IMG/VR virus record: IMGVR_UViG_3300042868_009857
Span: 1 to 20,970 of that record
Length of the DNA stretch: 20,970 nt
Direction: 5' to 3' (one strand)
Origin: a virus
A program made the translations under genes and the position numbers. Below the pieces are notes generated by a model. That model worked only from the letters and a program-made list of their open reading frames with translations, was not told the DNA's origin and did not search any database. The number at the start of each line of letters is the position of its first letter. The first letter of the stretch is position 1. This document shows, piece by piece, positions 11,757 to 19,637 of this stretch.

Positions 11757-11906
11757 TTATTTCTTCTTTTTTGGGTTTGCTTTATCATAAGCAAGTTTCA
11801 CTATTTCTTTTGGAATGTTTGAAAGTAATTCGTAACACTCGGTTAACTTTAATCCTTCCATCGATTCTAAATTAATCGAAAAACGCCCATGTTTAAACCA
11901 ACTCAT
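11757..11906 (-). CDS. Small 49-residue protein after the major tail protein
   Basis: This gene is too short for most gene finders. Its ATG overlaps the major tail protein stop as TAATG, so it is probably translated by coupling. The product starts MSWFKHGRFSINLESMEGLK, is mostly helical and ends in four lysines. The lysine run is encoded by AAAAAAG (11772 to 11766), read A-AAA-AAG, the strongest type of -1 slippery sequence. The slot between major tail protein and tape measure is where tail assembly chaperones with -1 frameshifts lie in many siphophages. A small chaperone is therefore a reasonable guess, though no family is recognised and 49 residues is short for one. Confidence 0.6.
   Translation of the reverse strand: MSWFKHGRFSINLESMEGLKLTECYELLSNIPKEIVKLAYDKANPKKKK
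11766..11772 (-). promoter_or_regulatory. Possible -1 ribosomal frameshift site (A-AAA-AAG)
   Basis: In the frame of the 49-residue gene, the heptamer reads A AAA AAG, the dnaX-type slippery sequence. A -1 shift would replace the last two lysines with 21 residues (EEITEKPLKLIEGFFMLKNH, then Y), ending at 11701 and giving a 68-residue protein. The terminator hairpin starts 12 bases downstream of the heptamer, a little further than usual for a stimulating structure. The full extension needs transcripts that read through that terminator. Confidence 0.3.
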
Positions 11907-12835
11907 TAAGGTACGATTAACTCAACTTTACCTGTGTAGTAAGTAGAAAGTGCCAAAGACAATTCTAATACATCTGCAGATGTTTGAGTAGGATAAACGA
12001 TATTATATTGTCCGTCAACAGTCAAACTTTCTGTTACAGATGTGATTGTAACTGTAGTCGAATCTGTTAAGTTTTTTAATACAAAGTTCGCACCAATCAA
12101 ACCAACAACATCAAAGTTCGGGTGTAATCCCATAGCGAAATCAGTACGTAAACCAACAGTTGCAGTAGTTGTAGTAACAGAGCCAACTTGAACTAAGTTA
12201 ACATCAGTTAATTGTCTCATGTTCAAGAAATCTACATTGATTTCGTTTCCATCGATAACATACAAATTCTCTTGTCTCATCAAATTGTCAAAGTCAACAG
12301 CAAACATAATTTTGTTAGTCGTTGTTGCATTTTTGAACATCATTTTAGGGTCAAGCGAACCGTTGTTAACTAATAACGGACGAACTAAAGTAGTTGAGTC
12401 AGGAATTGTAGTTAACACCAATTGATTTGAACGTGTTACTAAGAACATCGCCCAATTAGTGCAACGTAAAGCTTTCAATTTCTTTAATACGGCTGGAACT
12501 GCATCTTTGTCGCGAATCTCAGCAGTAAAAGACCAAATACCTTCACGAACGAAAGACTTTGTTCCGTCTGTAGCTTCGTCAAATACTGAATCAGCAATTG
12601 GGGCATCAGCACCATAGAAACGTGGTAATTTCACCCAGCGTAAAGAAGGGTCAGCGTTTGTGATTAAACCCGTAAGCGTTGAAGCTGTGAAAGGGTCTGT
12701 TAAATCGATTTCATTGTACGCCCCCGCATTTGTGAAAGTAGGTACAATAATCGCTCCTACAATGTCATCGATTTGCACAACGCAATTCGCACGACCAAAG
12801 TTGGGAGTTCCTTTTTGACAACATAGTGTACTCAT
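11906..12835 (-). CDS. Major tail (tube) protein
   Basis: The 309-residue protein starts MSTLCCQKGTPNFGRANCVV and is beta-rich without membrane segments. Position supports the call: it follows connector and joining genes and precedes the tail assembly genes and tape measure. Residues 1-210 look like a tube-forming domain. Residues from about 215 (VQVGSVTTTTATVGLRTDFA) to the end form a Thr/Val-rich strand region that could be a separate decorating domain of Ig-like type; this is uncertain. Tube proteins assemble around the tape measure in hexameric rings. Start and stop are firm, and the downstream 49-residue gene is coupled through TAATG. No strong sequence motif is recognised, so the call leans on context. 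Confidence 0.7.
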   Translation of the reverse strand: MSTLCCQKGTPNFGRANCVVQIDDIVGAIIVPTFTNAGAYNEIDLTDPFTASTLTGLITNADPSLRWVKLPRFYGADAPIADSVFDEATDGTKSFVREGIWSFTAEIRDKDAVPAVLKKLKALRCTNWAMFLVTRSNQLVLTTIPDSTTLVRPLLVNNGSLDPKMMFKNATTTNKIMFAVDFDNLMRQENLYVIDGNEINVDFLNMRQLTDVNLVQVGSVTTTTATVGLRTDFAMGLHPNFDVVGLIGANFVLKNLTDSTTVTITSVTESLTVDGQYNIVYPTQTSADVLELSLALSTYYTGKVELIVP

Positions 12836-12858
12836 TTTATTTAAATTTTAATTTTTTT

Positions 12859-13602
12859 CTAACAACATTCGACACCTTTGTAAACAGATAATGTTGGTCG
12901 AATTTCAACACCTCCTAAATTTGCATCTAGTATTCTTTCGTAATTAGTCTCACCATTTTTAGAATTTTCATTCGCAAATATTGAGAACGTAGTACGATTA
13001 GAGCTAGAAGACCTTTCTACTTTGTAACTTGAATCAACTGTATCTAAAAACGAATCAGATAATGAAAGCATAGGTTTCACGCCTTGTTTTCTTATCTGAA
13101 AGTTTTCATCTGAGTTACCATTTTCATTTACTAGTGAATCACCAGTTAAATCAATGTAATCTAAAAAGAACAACCTTAAACTAGCTTCTGAATCAAATGG
13201 ACTAAATTGCTCGTTAACACTTTCGTTAATCGATTCATAAAGCCAAATTAAAGGCAAGCCAGTATTTAAGTCAAATTGAATAGATTTCAACCACTCAATG
13301 TTAGCCGTGTATTTAGTACCATGAACGAACGTTGGACGTATAATTGTACCAACATCATGTTTCTTAATTACCGCTAATGGATTAGGAATATTTACAACAA
13401 CTTCATTAGTTAAATAGTTAATGCTAATCACTTGAAATTCATAAGAACCAATTGTTATAATACGCCCAACTTTTAACCACTTAATCGAACACAATACAAG
13501 CGTATAAGTTGTAACATTCGAAACAACAGATTTAACTTTGACTGTATTATCAATTAATGGTAACAGTTCGTAACGTAAAACATCAACTATATCCTTACTC
13601 AT
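12859..13602 (-). CDS. Head-tail joining or tail terminator-like protein
   Basis: The 247-residue protein overlaps the stop of the connector gene as ATGA. It begins with a helix (MSKDIVDVLRYELLPLIDNT), followed by an OB-like strand region (about 30-90) and a longer region with SESINES-type acidic and serine-rich segments. Two cysteines end the protein (ECC). Lying between the connector and the major tail protein, it fits a neck, tail completion or tail terminator component that seals the head-tail joint. No family is recognised with confidence; the call is from gene order. Confidence 0.6.
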   Translation of the reverse strand: MSKDIVDVLRYELLPLIDNTVKVKSVVSNVTTYTLVLCSIKWLKVGRIITIGSYEFQVISINYLTNEVVVNIPNPLAVIKKHDVGTIIRPTFVHGTKYTANIEWLKSIQFDLNTGLPLIWLYESINESVNEQFSPFDSEASLRLFFLDYIDLTGDSLVNENGNSDENFQIRKQGVKPMLSLSDSFLDTVDSSYKVERSSSSNRTTFSIFANENSKNGETNYERILDANLGGVEIRPTLSVYKGVECC

Positions 13603-14108
13603 ATCGAATAGTTAATTAGTATTTTTTGACCTTTGAAAGTTGGATAATCTTCGAAATGCTCATAGATGTACTGTTGAATACATTTAACCCATTTTACTGA
13701 ATCATTGTATCGATTGTAAATCTCTGAAATATTCGTTGTACTTGTTCCTGTTTCAACTTTAACTTGAATTACTCCGTTTGTTTGTGAAGGTTGTAATCGA
13801 GCCTCTGTAACAGCGCTCCAATAAATAAACCCTAACAAAATATTCTTTAATCCTTTAGACTCAAATAACTGTTCATTACAAGTAGAATTAAAAGCAAGTT
13901 CATTAAAGATAGTCTGAAATTCGGGAGACGTTGGTACGCCCCCCGTTAAATCAGCAATCAATAAATCACCAAGTTCAACACCTAGAATCTTATAAATGTA
14001 ACTTTTCTCGTACAAATCAATAACATTATCAATAGTACTCACGTTATGCGGGTTCTTCGCTAACAAGTAACGACCTGTGAAATCTGCAACATTTACAATT
14101 AATCCCAT
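13599..14108 (-). CDS. Head-tail connector (adaptor) protein
   Basis: This 169-residue protein is mainly helical. It has the pattern YEKSYIYKILGVELGDLLIA early on, followed by a region with FIYWSAVTEARLQPS and an amphipathic C-terminal helix. A 'yE..yL..lLG..l' helix followed by a membrane-like 'fiYf' helix is typical of connector proteins that bind below the portal in Bacteroidota phages, as I recall them. It sits after the capsid and 55-residue genes, exactly where a gp6-type adaptor is expected. It would form a ring joining the portal to the neck. Confidence 0.75.
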   Translation of the reverse strand: MGLIVNVADFTGRYLLAKNPHNVSTIDNVIDLYEKSYIYKILGVELGDLLIADLTGGVPTSPEFQTIFNELAFNSTCNEQLFESKGLKNILLGFIYWSAVTEARLQPSQTNGVIQVKVETGTSTTNISEIYNRYNDSVKWVKCIQQYIYEHFEDYPTFKGQKILINYSI

Positions 14109-14110
14109 TG

Positions 14111-14278
14111 TTAATCTTCTTTTGGTTCTTTATCACTTTCTTTTTTTGAAATAACTAATTTTACAGCTTTATTCTTAACACAAGCATCAGCAGTTGTATT
14201 ATTCATTTTAAGCTTATCTCCTTTTGAGTAATTACCAAACTTTTCGATAATAACCTCTACTTCTACTATATTACTCAT
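14111..14278 (-). CDS. Small 55-residue head gene product
   Basis: A short ORF from ATG 14278 to TAA 14111 lies between the capsid gene (ending at 14290) and the connector (starting at 14108). The product starts MSNIVEVEVIIEKFGNYSKG, then has DKLKMNNTTADACVKNKAVK and a charged Lys/Glu tail. The pattern 'y.kGD.l.....tA...v..g.A' is common in small proteins found just after capsid genes in many tailed phages. There such proteins fill the gap between capsid and connector genes and may be head completion or decoration factors. Coding potential is supported by its full occupancy of the gap and its tight spacing. Confidence 0.7.
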   Translation of the reverse strand: MSNIVEVEVIIEKFGNYSKGDKLKMNNTTADACVKNKAVKLVISKKESDKEPKED

Positions 14279-14289
14279 AATGTTAAAAA

Positions 14290-15573
14290 TTAAGGTGCTG
14301 TAATAGCTGTTTTAATAGTTGCGATATTATCGTAAATAAACGCTTGCTCGTCTAATTTCTTAACGAAAGCATGGAAACGAGACTCACCTACCATTGTAAA
14401 TTGATTAGTAATGAATTGGTCATTAATCCAACCTAATTTTACCGTATAAGAAACATAGTTAGTAGCGTTATATTTGCTCATATCAGCTACAAATATTTTT
14501 CCCGAAGGAATATCCATAAAAGGAATAATTGTAACGCCACCAATAACAACTTGATTAAACAAAGAAGCCGAAGGATATAACGGCAATCCGTTTGCATCTT
14601 TTGCAGAAACTAAGTTAATAAAGAAATCATTTGGTGAAATCATGACTAAACTAGGCATGTATGGAATTTCATCTACAAAGTTGTGAGTTGTGTAAATGTC
14701 AGTAATACAAGCATTAACAACGTCCATAAAGTTTGGAGTTACAACAGAGTTTGCTAATGCTCCAGCTGAGAATAAACGACCATAAACAGTAGCACCTTTT
14801 GGATTTGGTGCTGTTCCGTTACCAAATAAAATTCCGTTTTGACGTTTTAAATCATGTTTAGCGCGTAAATAATTATTAGCTATCGAACGTAAATTAGGAA
14901 TATCTTGAACAGATTCAGTTGTTAAAACCATGTGAGCCGCTACCTTAACTGGTTGAGCGTAACGAGTTTCAAATTTTAAATCAATTTGAGGTTTTGTTCC
15001 TTTTTCAGCTACAAATGAATAATCACCATCTTTTGGTAAGGATTCAGTGTAAGCATACACAGCTTGTGTAGTTGGAATTGTATTGATTAATCCATCTACA
15101 ATAGAACCTCTTAAGTTCACATTTGAAGGTGGAGCAATTTGAACGCCTGTTAAAGCTGGTGCTGGACTTGGTAAAGTTGCACTTGCTGTAGAGACTGCAT
15201 CAACAGCTTTAATTTCAAATTCAATGTGACCTGAACCAGCTGAATGAATTTCTTTAATTTTAGATTCGTTTTCTTGAATCCAATTGTTTACTTTAGTTTC
15301 AATAGTTTCAATACCAAAACTAGAACCTTTAACCTCTAAAACAGATTTCATTCTTAGACCAAATAATTCTTGCTCTTTAATGATTTCCTTTAAAGTGTTT
15401 TGTAAGCTTTCAACATCTTCTTTAGATGCGTTGTTTTTGTTAGCTTCTGCGATTTGTTTTTCAATTTCTTCTTTTCGCAAATTAGCTTCGTGTTCTGACT
15501 TTTGAGTACAGTACGTTTGGTACTCTGTAGCACTCATTTTGTCAATCTCTTCTTGTGTTTTTTCTACAAACAT
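14290..15573 (-). CDS. Major capsid protein (HK97 fold)
   Basis: The 427-residue protein starts MFVEKTQEEIDKMSATEYQT. Residues 12-75 form a charged coiled coil, as in the scaffold-like delta domain of HK97-type capsid precursors. A flexible region around 110-140 (Ser, Ala, Pro-rich) is where the prohead protease would be expected to cut. The C-terminal part carries hallmarks of the fold: an E-loop region near YSFVAEKGTKPQIDLKFETR, then YAQPVKVAAHMVLTTESVQD, and a spine-helix segment with LRAKHDLKRQNGILFGNG. It follows the protease gene by 16 bases and precedes the connector genes. This is one of the clearest calls in the window. Confidence 0.93.
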   Translation of the reverse strand: MFVEKTQEEIDKMSATEYQTYCTQKSEHEANLRKEEIEKQIAEANKNNASKEDVESLQNTLKEIIKEQELFGLRMKSVLEVKGSSFGIETIETKVNNWIQENESKIKEIHSAGSGHIEFEIKAVDAVSTASATLPSPAPALTGVQIAPPSNVNLRGSIVDGLINTIPTTQAVYAYTESLPKDGDYSFVAEKGTKPQIDLKFETRYAQPVKVAAHMVLTTESVQDIPNLRSIANNYLRAKHDLKRQNGILFGNGTAPNPKGATVYGRLFSAGALANSVVTPNFMDVVNACITDIYTTHNFVDEIPYMPSLVMISPNDFFINLVSAKDANGLPLYPSASLFNQVVIGGVTIIPFMDIPSGKIFVADMSKYNATNYVSYTVKLGWINDQFITNQFTMVGESRFHAFVKKLDEQAFIYDNIATIKTAITAP

Positions 15574-15589
15574 TTTAATAAATTTTTAG

Positions 15590-16423
15590 TTAATAATGTA
15601 ACCTTCTTCTTTTTTGAGTGTCGTTTGACGGCTCTTGTTTATCGTTTTCCTGAGTGTCTTTCAACGGCTCATTCTTACTTTCTAGTGTTGGTGTAGCGTA
15701 ATTACTACCCATTACAACAGCGCTACCTTCACGGACTTTCGCCTCTAGCACCGCCCAAAAATATCCTTTTGAATCTGCAATTTCTTTATTTACAGCCAAT
15801 GGATAATATTTTTCCCACGCTTCATATTCTTCTGCTGTTGCCCATTCTTTGTTTCCAACGCAAAAAAGAATTTTTGTATAATTCATTCCAACTGAATGAT
15901 TACGAACATACCCTTTTTTGTACTGTTCAAACATGAATTTATTACGTTCAACTGAAATAGGAGCATCGAAAATTAAAGCTTGTGTTTTACCTTCAAAATT
16001 GAAACCTAAATCAGTCCAATTCATGTTTTTAGTATAGACTTTCATTCCGTCTTTTTCGGAACAAGAAATAATACTATCGAATGACATTTTATGTTCTTGA
16101 AGTAAAGGTAAATATTTAGTTTCTTTCAATGATTTATTCCAAATTCCATCCACGTGCATATCCATGTGAGAATCAATCAAATTAGTAGTGTTAATAACTA
16201 ACTTACGTTGGATTAAATTATCAGTATCTTTTGATTCAGCTTTAAATACTTCATTGTACTGATCACTTTTTTCTGTAGAAACTTTTGAAACTGAATCGTG
16301 GTGGAAATTAATTTCATCAGAGAATTTCAAAGCCGACTTTTTTTGATGTTCAATCGCTTTCTTATTTTCCTGAATGAATTTTATTTCATCACGGGGATTA
16401 TCAAACGTTGGTATTTCAATCAT
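15590..16423 (-). CDS. Prohead maturation protease (HK97 type)
   Basis: The 277-residue protein cleaves the capsid precursor during head maturation. An unusual N-terminal part of about 70 charged residues precedes the protease fold. Key positions are DSHMDMHVDGIW (84-95), LLQEH with probable catalytic His111, and the HSVGM segment with probable catalytic Ser177. REGS (231-234) is followed by SN.ATP, like the 'EvS.V..paNp.A' region that holds the third catalytic residue. The C-terminus has a 12-residue tandem repeat (EPLKDTQ, then EPSNDTQ) before a basic RRR end. It starts by ATGA overlap with a 30-residue ORF and lies just before the capsid gene. Confidence 0.85.
   Translation of the reverse strand: MIEIPTFDNPRDEIKFIQENKKAIEHQKKSALKFSDEINFHHDSVSKVSTEKSDQYNEVFKAESKDTDNLIQRKLVINTTNLIDSHMDMHVDGIWNKSLKETKYLPLLQEHKMSFDSIISCSEKDGMKVYTKNMNWTDLGFNFEGKTQALIFDAPISVERNKFMFEQYKKGYVRNHSVGMNYTKILFCVGNKEWATAEEYEAWEKYYPLAVNKEIADSKGYFWAVLEAKVREGSAVVMGSNYATPTLESKNEPLKDTQENDKQEPSNDTQKRRRLHY
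15615..15670 (-). repeat. Short tandem repeat at the protease C-terminus
   Basis: Two copies of a 20-base sequence (15615-15634 and 15651-15670) match at 17 of 20 bases and lie 36 bases apart. They encode EPLKDTQ and EPSNDTQ. The repeat is in frame (12 codons), so gain or loss of a unit would only lengthen or shorten the C-terminal tail. Confidence 0.7.
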
Positions 16424-16512
16424 TTCTTAACGATTTTAGTCGATTTAACAATTTTATTCTTTGCGTTTTTAACCGCTTCAATTTCCGCTTGTGTAGGTTT
16501 TTGTCCTTCCAT
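16420..16512 (-). CDS. Short 30-residue ORF before the protease
   Basis: A minus-strand ORF from ATG 16512 to TGA 16420 encodes MEGQKPTQAEIEAVKNAKNK and then IVKSTKIVKK, a basic helical peptide. Its stop overlaps the protease start as ATGA, the same junction used elsewhere in the cluster, which suggests translation and coupling. It is the first reading frame after the candidate promoter at 16538-16569. It could be a small protein or a leader that feeds ribosomes to the protease start. No family is recognised. Confidence 0.5.
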   Translation of the reverse strand: MEGQKPTQAEIEAVKNAKNKIVKSTKIVKK

Positions 16513-16537
16513 AATGCAAATTTACCATTTATCAAGG

Positions 16538-16569
16538 CAAATATAAACTTTTTTCTATAAATTTGACAA
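16538..16569 (-). promoter_or_regulatory. Promoter for the head and major tail operon
   Basis: On the minus strand, TTG (16567-16569) is followed after 21 bases by TATATTTG (16538-16545), matching the flavobacterial consensus. Transcription would begin near 16531, about 19 bases before the 30-residue ORF, and cover protease, capsid and tail genes down to the terminator at 11724-11753. It overlaps the plus-strand signal for the portal gene. Confidence 0.6.
16558..16565 (+). promoter_or_regulatory. Candidate -7 element for the portal gene
   Basis: TAAATTTG on the plus strand fits the TAnnTTTG element and lies 18 bases before the portal ATG at 16583, giving a leader of about 12 bases. No TTG is found at the usual distance upstream, so this promoter would be weaker or need an activator. 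Some plus-strand promoter is expected, since all genes to the left are on the other strand. Confidence 0.4.
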
Positions 16570-16582
16570 AATATTGAAAATT

Positions 16583-17815
16583 ATGGGATTAATTCAAATG
16601 GGTAACTTTAGATTTCAATGGGGAGGTCAAGGAAACGATAGATTTACAAGAACACCAAATAATTGGGTAAATCGATTGTTTGGAAGTAATAACGATAAAG
16701 AACAATGGATTACAGTTGTAGGTAAAGAAGCGGAGATTTATAACACTACCGCAGAGGTAAAAATAGTTTTTGACCGTTTCGCCTCAATGTTTTCAAACGG
16801 AATTTATCAGGAACTTGATGCAAAAGGTGAAGTAGTTGAAAATTCTGAAATCGTTAAACGTTTATTAAATCCAAATGTTTTGTTGAATGGCAAATCTTTT
16901 ATGCAAGAATGTGCTTTGCATTACTTAATTTTCGGTAATCGCATAACATACACAAATTACGGTTCTTCACTATCAGAAGTTCCAACAGCTTTATGGAATT
17001 TACCAGCAGATAGAATTAAGATGATTTTAACGGGGTTAATCTATGAGCAAATAGACATTGACGGAATTATCAAAGAATATTATTTAGACTACGATAATAA
17101 TGGAACAGAACAACGTAAAACTTGGCAACCTAGCGAAATAATCCACCATAAGAACATAGACCCGTTAAACCCCCTAAAAGGTAAATCTGTTCTTGAATCG
17201 CTTCACATGGATATTTCAAACATAAGAGCTTCGAAAGGTTTTCAAAATGTTTTGTTAACTAAAAAGGGTGCATTAGGATTTATATCGAATGGTTCAAAAG
17301 ATATGGCTGGGAATATTCCTTTAGGTTCTGAGGATAGATTAGCACTTGAAAAACAATTTGCAGAAACTCATGGACAATTTGACGGACAAAGTGCAATTGC
17401 AATAACTGCGTATGATACTAAATGGAATCCAACAAGTTTTCCTGTTAAAGATATGATGACTTTCGAAACTATTTCGGAAGGAATGAAACGCATTATTGAT
17501 TCAGTACAATTGAATGATAATATTTTTAGTAAAGAAAAATCTAAGGTTCAAGCTAACTTACAAGAAGGTTTAAAGATGGCTTATCAAGATGCTATAATTC
17601 CATTTGCTAATGATTACTGTAATAATTTTAGTGAACGATTAAGGTTAAAAGAAGGTCATAAAATAGCTTTAAATTACGAGCATATTTCAGCACTTCAAAA
17701 AGACGATAAAACAGAAAACGAAGTAAAGGAAATCAAAGCGAGAGCGGTAAAAGCCTATACAGATGCTGGATTTACACCTGAAAAAGCATTAGAACTTGTT
17801 GAAGAAACTGTTTAA
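16583..17815 (+). CDS. Portal protein (HK97 family), inverted relative to its neighbours
   Basis: The 410-residue protein forms the dodecameric ring at one capsid vertex through which DNA is packaged and ejected. The first ATG, at 16583, is chosen; a TTG at 16574 is a less likely start. Features of this portal family include a ring-contact region with SFMQECALHYLIFGNRITY (105-123), then the HHKNIDPLNPLKGKSVLESL segment (188-207), and a C-terminal helical region (320-400). Gene order places it where portals normally lie, between large terminase and protease, but it is on the plus strand while all neighbours are on the minus strand. Its TAA stop overlaps the large terminase stop within TTAA at 17812-17815. 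Confidence 0.9.
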   Translation: MGLIQMGNFRFQWGGQGNDRFTRTPNNWVNRLFGSNNDKEQWITVVGKEAEIYNTTAEVKIVFDRFASMFSNGIYQELDAKGEVVENSEIVKRLLNPNVLLNGKSFMQECALHYLIFGNRITYTNYGSSLSEVPTALWNLPADRIKMILTGLIYEQIDIDGIIKEYYLDYDNNGTEQRKTWQPSEIIHHKNIDPLNPLKGKSVLESLHMDISNIRASKGFQNVLLTKKGALGFISNGSKDMAGNIPLGSEDRLALEKQFAETHGQFDGQSAIAITAYDTKWNPTSFPVKDMMTFETISEGMKRIIDSVQLNDNIFSKEKSKVQANLQEGLKMAYQDAIIPFANDYCNNFSERLRLKEGHKIALNYEHISALQKDDKTENEVKEIKARAVKAYTDAGFTPEKALELVEETV

Positions 17816-19185
17816 ACTAATTTAATATATCCTTCTGCTCTTAGTCTGTTTGCCAAATAACGGCAACAATCCATCGTATGATTATCTTTATCAATTGGAG
17901 TTTCTAAAATTATTCCGTATCGGTCTATATCCCATTCATAGTTTTCTAATTCATATTCAATATTTTCTGAATTATCAGTATAAAATACTTGAACATTATC
18001 TAGTAAATCGATTCCTTCAATAATTTTACCCTTCATGGCTGGTTTTGCTTGTTCGTAACCACAACGACGTAACATTGCAATCTTTTCAAGTCTATTGTAA
18101 TCACAATCTATTACTGCTTTTTTAGGTATTTTAATTCTTTCGAATAACCATTGAACAATTCCAATTCCTTCCGTATCAGAACCTAATTTTACGGATTCAT
18201 CACTACTCATTCTTTCGCGCCATTGATTTTCTGAAAGGTAATTATACTCATGGAAATAAACAGCACCGTCATAGAATTTAGCACCAACAACCGCCCAAGG
18301 GTCAGATTTTCCCCAGTCACAAGCGAAGTATTCTTTTGAGTGTAATTTTAGATAAAATTCTGTTCTACATTTTTCCCAATCAGTAAACACTCTATTTGGT
18401 TTTTCAGCTTTTAAACCTAGACCATATACGCACCATTTGAATTCGTTTGCACTTGTTTTAGTTTCGTTTTGAATACATCGAATAGCTTCCTTGATATGTT
18501 TGTTTTCGAAATTAAGTTTGTTTTCTTCGAAGTTGTAAGCTTTTAATTCATATTCACTTATTAGTTTATTCTTTACTAAATAAGACCACTTTAACGGTTG
18601 GTATGAAAGTATTTTATTTCGCTGTTCCTCAGGGCAAAAAGGATTATCTTTAAATGTTGAATCAATTACAATCGTCCTTTCGTCTTTTATTATATCTTCT
18701 ACCCAGTGACCTTTTTTAGGGTTGTAATCAATGAAAACAAAATCACTTGTACGCTGGTCAATTTGGTCAAATGTATCTTTTGAAATCTTGTAAGGCTCGT
18801 TAAACCATGCTAAATCCTGAGTTAAACCATGAACTGTTTCTTCATCATCAGTTCCATGAATTTCAACAGTTGAATCAGTTGTGTAAGTGAAAATAGATTC
18901 AGTTTTATTAAAGTCTTGATTTACTTTGTAAAGATTTTCACGCTTCAATGTTTTAAGCATATCATTCAAAACAGTCTTTTTGCAATCTGTTTTAGTGTCG
19001 CGCCAAATAGTACAACGTTTATTGCTTTTAGAACGTGAATACAGGTCATAAACCTGAATTAATGAAATAGTCTTTGATGAACGAGAAGAACCACGATTTA
19101 CGATATATCTAAATTTGTTTTTACCGTCCTCAGTTTTTTCGTTAATCGCATTCCAATTCTTTTCAAAAACTATTGTAGCGTTCAT
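17812..19185 (-). CDS. Terminase large subunit (packaging ATPase and nuclease)
   Basis: The 457-residue motor protein drives DNA into the prohead and cuts it into genome lengths. The ATPase domain has a Walker A-like RGSSRSSKT (31-39) and a Walker B-like DLAWFNEP with likely catalytic Glu130. The C-terminal nuclease domain has the three expected acidic sites: DWGKSDPWAVV (Asp290), KAVIDCDYNRLE (Asp360) and HTMDCCRYL (Asp439). Length is normal for this family. Its start overlaps the small terminase stop as TAATG, and its end converges with the portal gene, sharing TTAA for both stops. Confidence 0.95.
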   Translation of the reverse strand: MNATIVFEKNWNAINEKTEDGKNKFRYIVNRGSSRSSKTISLIQVYDLYSRSKSNKRCTIWRDTKTDCKKTVLNDMLKTLKRENLYKVNQDFNKTESIFTYTTDSTVEIHGTDDEETVHGLTQDLAWFNEPYKISKDTFDQIDQRTSDFVFIDYNPKKGHWVEDIIKDERTIVIDSTFKDNPFCPEEQRNKILSYQPLKWSYLVKNKLISEYELKAYNFEENKLNFENKHIKEAIRCIQNETKTSANEFKWCVYGLGLKAEKPNRVFTDWEKCRTEFYLKLHSKEYFACDWGKSDPWAVVGAKFYDGAVYFHEYNYLSENQWRERMSSDESVKLGSDTEGIGIVQWLFERIKIPKKAVIDCDYNRLEKIAMLRRCGYEQAKPAMKGKIIEGIDLLDNVQVFYTDNSENIEYELENYEWDIDRYGIILETPIDKDNHTMDCCRYLANRLRAEGYIKLV

Positions 19186-19637
19186 TAATCTTCTTCTATT
19201 GGTCTGATTATTTTAACCGTCAATTCGGTTGGTACAGAATTTATTTTTTGATTTAAACTTGTAAGGTCAATTTTATCCCCGTACTTCTTAGGTTTTAATT
19301 TTGATGCAATCCATTTACGCGCTTCAACTCGAAGTTTAGAACGGTTTACCCATTCTGTGTTTTCAACTTCTATTTCCTGTTCACCTTTATGAATTATTTT
19401 AGTGTCATTACTAGAATCATCTGCAATCTCAATTATTTGGTCAGCTAAGAAATCAGCTTGATTTTCTCGCGCGCACGTGTATTTGTAACGTAGTTCACCT
19501 TCTTCATCTTCTCTAATCCATCTATGAAAACTATTAGATGTTGTTCCATGCTTTTTACAGATATGAACTAAGCCTATTGAAGATACTGAAATCTCATCGC
19601 AAATTTTATCGAATAATTCTTGTGAAAACGCACCCAT
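19185..19637 (-). CDS. Terminase small subunit
   Basis: The 150-residue protein recognises phage DNA and passes it to the large subunit. An N-terminal helix-turn-helix region (about 5-43, with SSIGLVHICKKHGTTSNSFH) would bind DNA. The central helices (ADFLADQIIEIADDSSND) and the later RSKLRVEARKWIASKLKPKK, followed by YGDK, closely fit the small terminases of the Sf6 type. It is coupled to the large subunit by TAATG and follows a 25-residue hydrophobic ORF by seven bases. Confidence 0.9.
   Translation of the reverse strand: MGAFSQELFDKICDEISVSSIGLVHICKKHGTTSNSFHRWIREDEEGELRYKYTCARENQADFLADQIIEIADDSSNDTKIIHKGEQEIEVENTEWVNRSKLRVEARKWIASKLKPKKYGDKIDLTSLNQKINSVPTELTVKIIRPIEED

Follow-up and report, generated by a model that had tools for sequence, protein, structure and literature searches.

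Few gene orders in tailed phages are as conserved as that of the packaging and head genes, which is usually attributed to co-expression. The locus described here raises the question of how a portal gene came to be turned around within such a cluster and how it could be expressed there. The window (the whole stretch of DNA that was analyzed, a metagenomic virus record of 20,970 bases) carries its portal gene at 16583 to 17815 on the plus strand, between the terminase genes (17812 to 19637) and the protease and capsid genes (14290 to 16423), which are on the minus strand, as are all remaining head, packaging, and tail genes. The portal is the sole plus-strand gene of this set, and the sign of the GC skew reverses across it alone. 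The gene map thereby upholds the preliminary description, according to which the portal occupies its usual slot and only its orientation has changed. The gene encodes 410 amino acids from an ATG at 16583, and an in-frame TTG at 16574 extends the plus-strand ORF to 16574 to 17815. Both profile and fold firmly place the product in the HK97-type portal family (PF04860). It matched Pfam Phage_portal PF04860 (E 5e-25, exceeding the curated cutoff) and a PHROG portal family (E 2e-18), and its AlphaFold model (pLDDT 79) resembled the GTA and HK97 portals both by Foldseek (E 1e-11 to 1e-13) and in a structural comparison (VIA Z 22 to 25).

At its downstream end the portal converges with the gene for the terminase large subunit (TerL; 17812 to 19185, minus), which is followed on the map by that for the small subunit (TerS; 19185 to 19637, minus), both recognized by PHROG and Pfam. 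The bases TTAA at 17812 to 17815 belong to both the portal and the TerL stop codon, a tail-to-tail overlap. On the other side lie, all on the minus strand, a small lysine-rich ORF of 30 amino acids (MEGQKPTQAEIEAVKNAKNKIVKSTKIVKK; 16420 to 16512), the capsid maturation protease (15590 to 16423), whose start overlaps the stop of the small ORF as ATGA, and the major capsid (major head) protein (14290 to 15573; PHROG and Pfam). The family libraries gave no match for the protease. Its structural model best matched the T4 gp21 protease (Z 9.7) and then exclusively herpesvirus capsid proteases to rank 22, and residues H111 and S177 are invariant across 38 relatives; the fold and the conserved His/Ser pair point to a capsid assembly protease of the HK97/T4 gp21/herpesvirus type with predicted catalysis. 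Elsewhere in the window, a predicted tail-region protein (187 to 834, minus) contains collagen-like GxxGxxG repeats, and a search of the window against Rfam returned zero matches.

The inverted portal had been put forward as a novelty of a single phage, a claim that falls given that all close relatives share it. The portal query retrieved 12 viral contigs with portals 63 to 100% identical, each opposite to its neighbors wherever neighbors were present, and when alignments of all three proteins (portal, protease, and TerL) served as queries in wider searches, the total reached 156 loci. In a profile census of 92 nonredundant portals of at least 300 amino acids, 46 were opposite to the adjoining TerL and/or protease and 44 were in line with them, the remainder being one mixed locus (L068) and one without recognized neighbors (L029). 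Portal and TerL were on opposite strands in every TerL-bearing inverted locus, the window included. In the mixed locus (L068, 3632 to 7807), a terminase-like pair on the minus strand diverges from a plus-strand group of portal, protease, and capsid genes, which is a distinct rearrangement. The window comes from a metagenomic virus record, for which an assembly or binning artifact might be suspected; however, the same junctions recur in independent contigs from many datasets and across deep divergence, and we give this explanation practically no credence. The 46 inverted portals derive from more than 50 metagenome dataset numbers (counted by contig name), and these independent contigs exclude the assembly error for which the preliminary description had allowed. 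The inverted portal is thus confirmed as a trait of a clade, neither a one-off nor an assembly mistake.

This clade is apparently large and uncultured. All of the isolates examined (from Flavobacterium, Polaribacter, Cellulophaga, Tenacibaculum, and Leeuwenhoekiella) are collinear, and none of 50,697 phage records held a portal with more than about 31% identity to the six inverted portals used as queries. Given that no relative was confirmed in the bacterial genome contigs scanned, we could only infer the hosts, most plausibly Bacteroidota, from the promoter type and the related isolates. The open-access papers searched contained no earlier report of an inverted portal, nor of the pattern at the level of a clade.

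Were the portal segment an active inversion switch, with portal expression toggled by its orientation, its ends would be a place to look for inverted repeats. In agreement with the preliminary description, which saw no obvious ones, comparison of the two ends gave short AT-rich partial matches and nothing convincing, and no close relatives show both orientations; an invertible (phase-variable) segment was rejected on both counts. Three loci (L128, L130, and L135) do carry fragments of portal and protease in differing orientations, as a switch might produce, but their genes are broken and all come from datasets 3300020043 to 3300020045, so that chimeras are the likelier origin and a switch is very improbable. 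In L135 (3342 to 5317) the protease N terminus is fused to the portal C terminus, in L130 (8426 to 9868) part of the portal and protease is inverted, and in L128 (1509 to 5369) the portal is in separate parts on either side of the terminase, and two capsid genes diverge from one another. A different kind of disruption affects TerL, into which an intein-like sequence is inserted in frame in L015 (7220 to 9382) and L135 (916 to 3204), with a second HNH-endonuclease-like ORF overlapping the interrupted gene in both; the TerL ORFs of L052, L116, and L117 are also long.

The portal trees, from which the three scrambled contigs were excluded as probable chimeras, point to a single origin. In a 58-row maximum-likelihood tree that included isolates, the inverted portals formed one clade with 100/99 support, nested in collinear lineages, and orientation changed exactly once in 100% of the bootstrap trees; a 92-row quick tree gave the same single clade with a support of 90. 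Several independent flips are ruled out by this single change. On the protease tree built for these loci, that orientation label required 13 changes, at least 9 of which were forced by well-supported branches, and on the TerL tree it required 3, which indicates that orientation belongs to the portal lineage and that the neighbors have been exchanged around the portal. Among the closest relatives, portals 88 to 92% identical adjoin TerL genes of two unrelated families through one and the same 4-base junction, the TTAA overlap being identical in L003 and L006 despite the unrelated TerL there. In L003, identity begins within the opening codons of the small ORF, spans the gap, and extends into the portal; the boundary of the exchange lies inside this ORF. 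Orientation, single origin, and persistence amid the exchange of neighbors together show, at the level of sequence comparison, a single and ancient inversion that has been inherited since. The view in the preliminary description that no recent recombinase-driven flip had occurred holds in the light of this one ancient change. Over the head region (window 11906 to 19185), gene-by-gene identity to L001, L002, L004, and L007 is very uneven, with the capsid protein at 28 to 98%, the protease at 54 to 95%, and TerL at 97% or unrelated, beside genes at 90% or above, a strong single-gene mosaicism.

The small ORF helps to delimit what was turned around. Collinear relatives have a small lysine-rich ORF in the interval from portal to protease, and in most of them its stop overlaps the start of the protease (ATGA). 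The inverted relatives retain it, still attached to the protease, so that nothing but the portal and sequence upstream of it was turned around. In the window and its relatives, this ORF in almost every case has (I)VKK as its final residues and a stop codon that overlaps the ATG of the protease. Bacteroidota lack Shine-Dalgarno sites, and the A-rich end of the small ORF may for this reason also serve as start context for the protease gene.

The portal and the head genes diverge from a short gap, which contains predicted promoter elements in both directions. TAnnTTTG is the consensus of the flavobacterial -7 box (PMC9723704, PMC6847099), and the consensus position for predicted starts was taken from PMC6847099. 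In the window, a predicted portal-promoter -7 box (TAAATTTG; 16558 to 16565, plus) would direct a start at 16570 with a leader of 13 nt, and a predicted head-operon -7 box (TATATTTG; 16538 to 16545, minus) would direct a start at 16533 with a leader of 21 nt, the two boxes being 12 bp apart. At the level of these predicted boxes, the two divergent promoter elements are close enough to overlap. A TTG at -33 of the predicted head-operon promoter (16567 to 16569, minus) is 21 bp from its -7 box, and a second TAAATTTG on the head side (16517 to 16524, minus) is too near the ATG to be the main box. The window held 2 full -33/-7 sites versus 1.1 expected, a count that is weak evidence alone. A sigma-70 promoter scan of the window gave fewer matches than shuffled sequence, and that model is unsuited to Bacteroidota.

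The gaps of inverted loci contained TAnnTTTG toward the portal in 27 of 29 clusters (L079 and L117 being the two without it), toward the head genes in 26 (three being without it), and in both directions in 25; under tighter clustering, the pair was present in 15/15 clusters at 50% identity and 5/5 at 40%. In collinear loci, 13 of 25 clusters had a box upstream of the portal, and 4 of 24 had one upstream of the protease. Across 45 inverted loci, the two directions yielded 44 and 46 sites, compared to shuffle means of 10.6 and 7.2; as the rows are related, neither these counts nor the cluster counts are independent. The distance from box to ATG was mostly 15 to 31 bp, and the distances between boxes clustered at 11 to 13, 21 to 23, 31, and 42 to 44 bp, close to helix turns with a period near 10.3 bp; none of 20,000 jittered sets was equally regular. 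The -33 element, which is generally weak in flavobacteria (PMC6847099), was weak or absent, especially on the portal side, where 1 cluster had a TTG versus 5 on the head side. We considered a stronger head-side -33 element as a sign of dosage and did not retain it, as the trend was not significant (Fisher 0.10). The gaps of L061 and L121 contain a direct repeat, TTATGTTAAATAG, in two copies 34 to 35 bp apart, and that of L139 contains its reverse, 57 bp apart; common to these distant members, it is a candidate operator for a phage regulator. The gaps of the window group showed no clear direct repeat as a common operator.

We put at about three in four the probability that a single ancient inversion of the portal alone has left it as a self-contained unit fired from a bidirectional late promoter that also serves the head operon. 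The portal was inverted once, by itself, in the ancestor from which a large clade of tailed Bacteroidota phages descends, and it has remained inverted. The short gap between the portal and the small ORF and protease would act as the late promoter, with two overlapping TAnnTTTG promoters firing outward, one toward the portal and the other toward the small ORF, protease, capsid, and tail genes. Given overlapping sites, the polymerases would exclude each other, which would result in common timing and a ring-to-capsid ratio that could be tuned separately through the relative strength of the two promoter sides. Promoter and portal together would form a cassette that remains functional when terminase, protease, or capsid is replaced by recombination. 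Against this reading stand the weak -33 element, the clusters that lack one of the boxes, and the possibility that transcription running on from the terminase supplies the head genes as well. The preliminary description proposed that inversion separates portal expression in dosage or timing; a predicted transcript of its own favors the separation, and separate dosage is possible, but separate timing is unlikely because the portal box lies so near the head-operon box in the same gap. More tentative, and on balance doubtful, is a stronger form of this proposal for the whole uncultured clade, in which two mutually exclusive, helix-phased promoters would set the ring-to-capsid ratio, each initiation choosing the ring gene or the head operon, and the promoter-portal cassette would work beside unrelated terminases.

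It is a serious possibility, somewhat short of even, that the flip was a neutral accident, kept as workable once both sides had a promoter and conferring no benefit in dosage or modularity. The collinear relatives are about equally numerous and diverse, and the boxes were perhaps needed merely because the flip cut the operon. An accident is harder to reconcile with the lack of any reversal within the clade over deep divergence and with the recurrence of helix-phased box spacing in distant members, although neither observation proves a benefit. The convergent end of the gene suggests another role, antisense control, whereby portal and terminase messages would collide tail to tail and limit each other. 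In 16 of 26 clusters their ORFs touch or overlap, and no terminator-like site was found near 17815, the downstream end of the portal; however, the two genes are 57 to 3,093 bp apart in the other 10 clusters and tight packing is usual for phage genes, which makes this role unlikely.

The clade broke a conserved gene order once and has retained that break through the exchange of neighboring genes, and the collinear relatives provide a ready contrast set. With this set one can test whether the portal, of which each head has one ring of 12, requires dosage control of its own, and whether carrying its own promoter lets a gene move more freely from phage to phage. The inverted portal also marks, in an easily recognized way, a clade that has no isolate in the collection searched.

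Several known systems resemble parts of this arrangement. The Polaribacter phages Freya and Danklef (Forsetiviridae), Flavobacterium Muminvirus, and Leeuwenhoekiella Arctus have the same gene order with homologous portal, protease, and terminase, and Freya/Danklef and Muminvirus also have the small-ORF slot between portal and protease. They differ in that the HK97-type head cluster is all on one strand, and identity between their portals and the inverted portals used as queries stays below about 31%. In bidirectional promoters of Escherichia coli (PMC12825309) and Salmonella (PMC10268837), as predicted here, the divergent starts lie near enough for one polymerase to shut out the other, a competition that in E. 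coli matters at high activity only (PMC12825309). Those starts are mostly 10 to 23 bp apart with pseudosymmetric -10 boxes, whereas the window has predicted starts about 37 bp apart, two separate TAnnTTTG boxes, and predicted activity. Among the arrangements checked, the nearest known precedent is the pair of divergent PQ/ONM late operons of P2 (NC_001895). There transcription of Q, which encodes the portal, runs away from O (scaffold/protease) and N (capsid), as the window portal is from its head genes, and one activator site lies between the PQ and ONMLXY starts. The P2 starts are 111 bp apart compared to the roughly 37 bp predicted here, and its proteins and hosts differ from those of the window phage. 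Given that Q shares an operon with the large terminase gene P, whereas the window portal stands alone and converges with its terminase, the window represents a variant of divergent portal/head late operons rather than a member of the P2 type.
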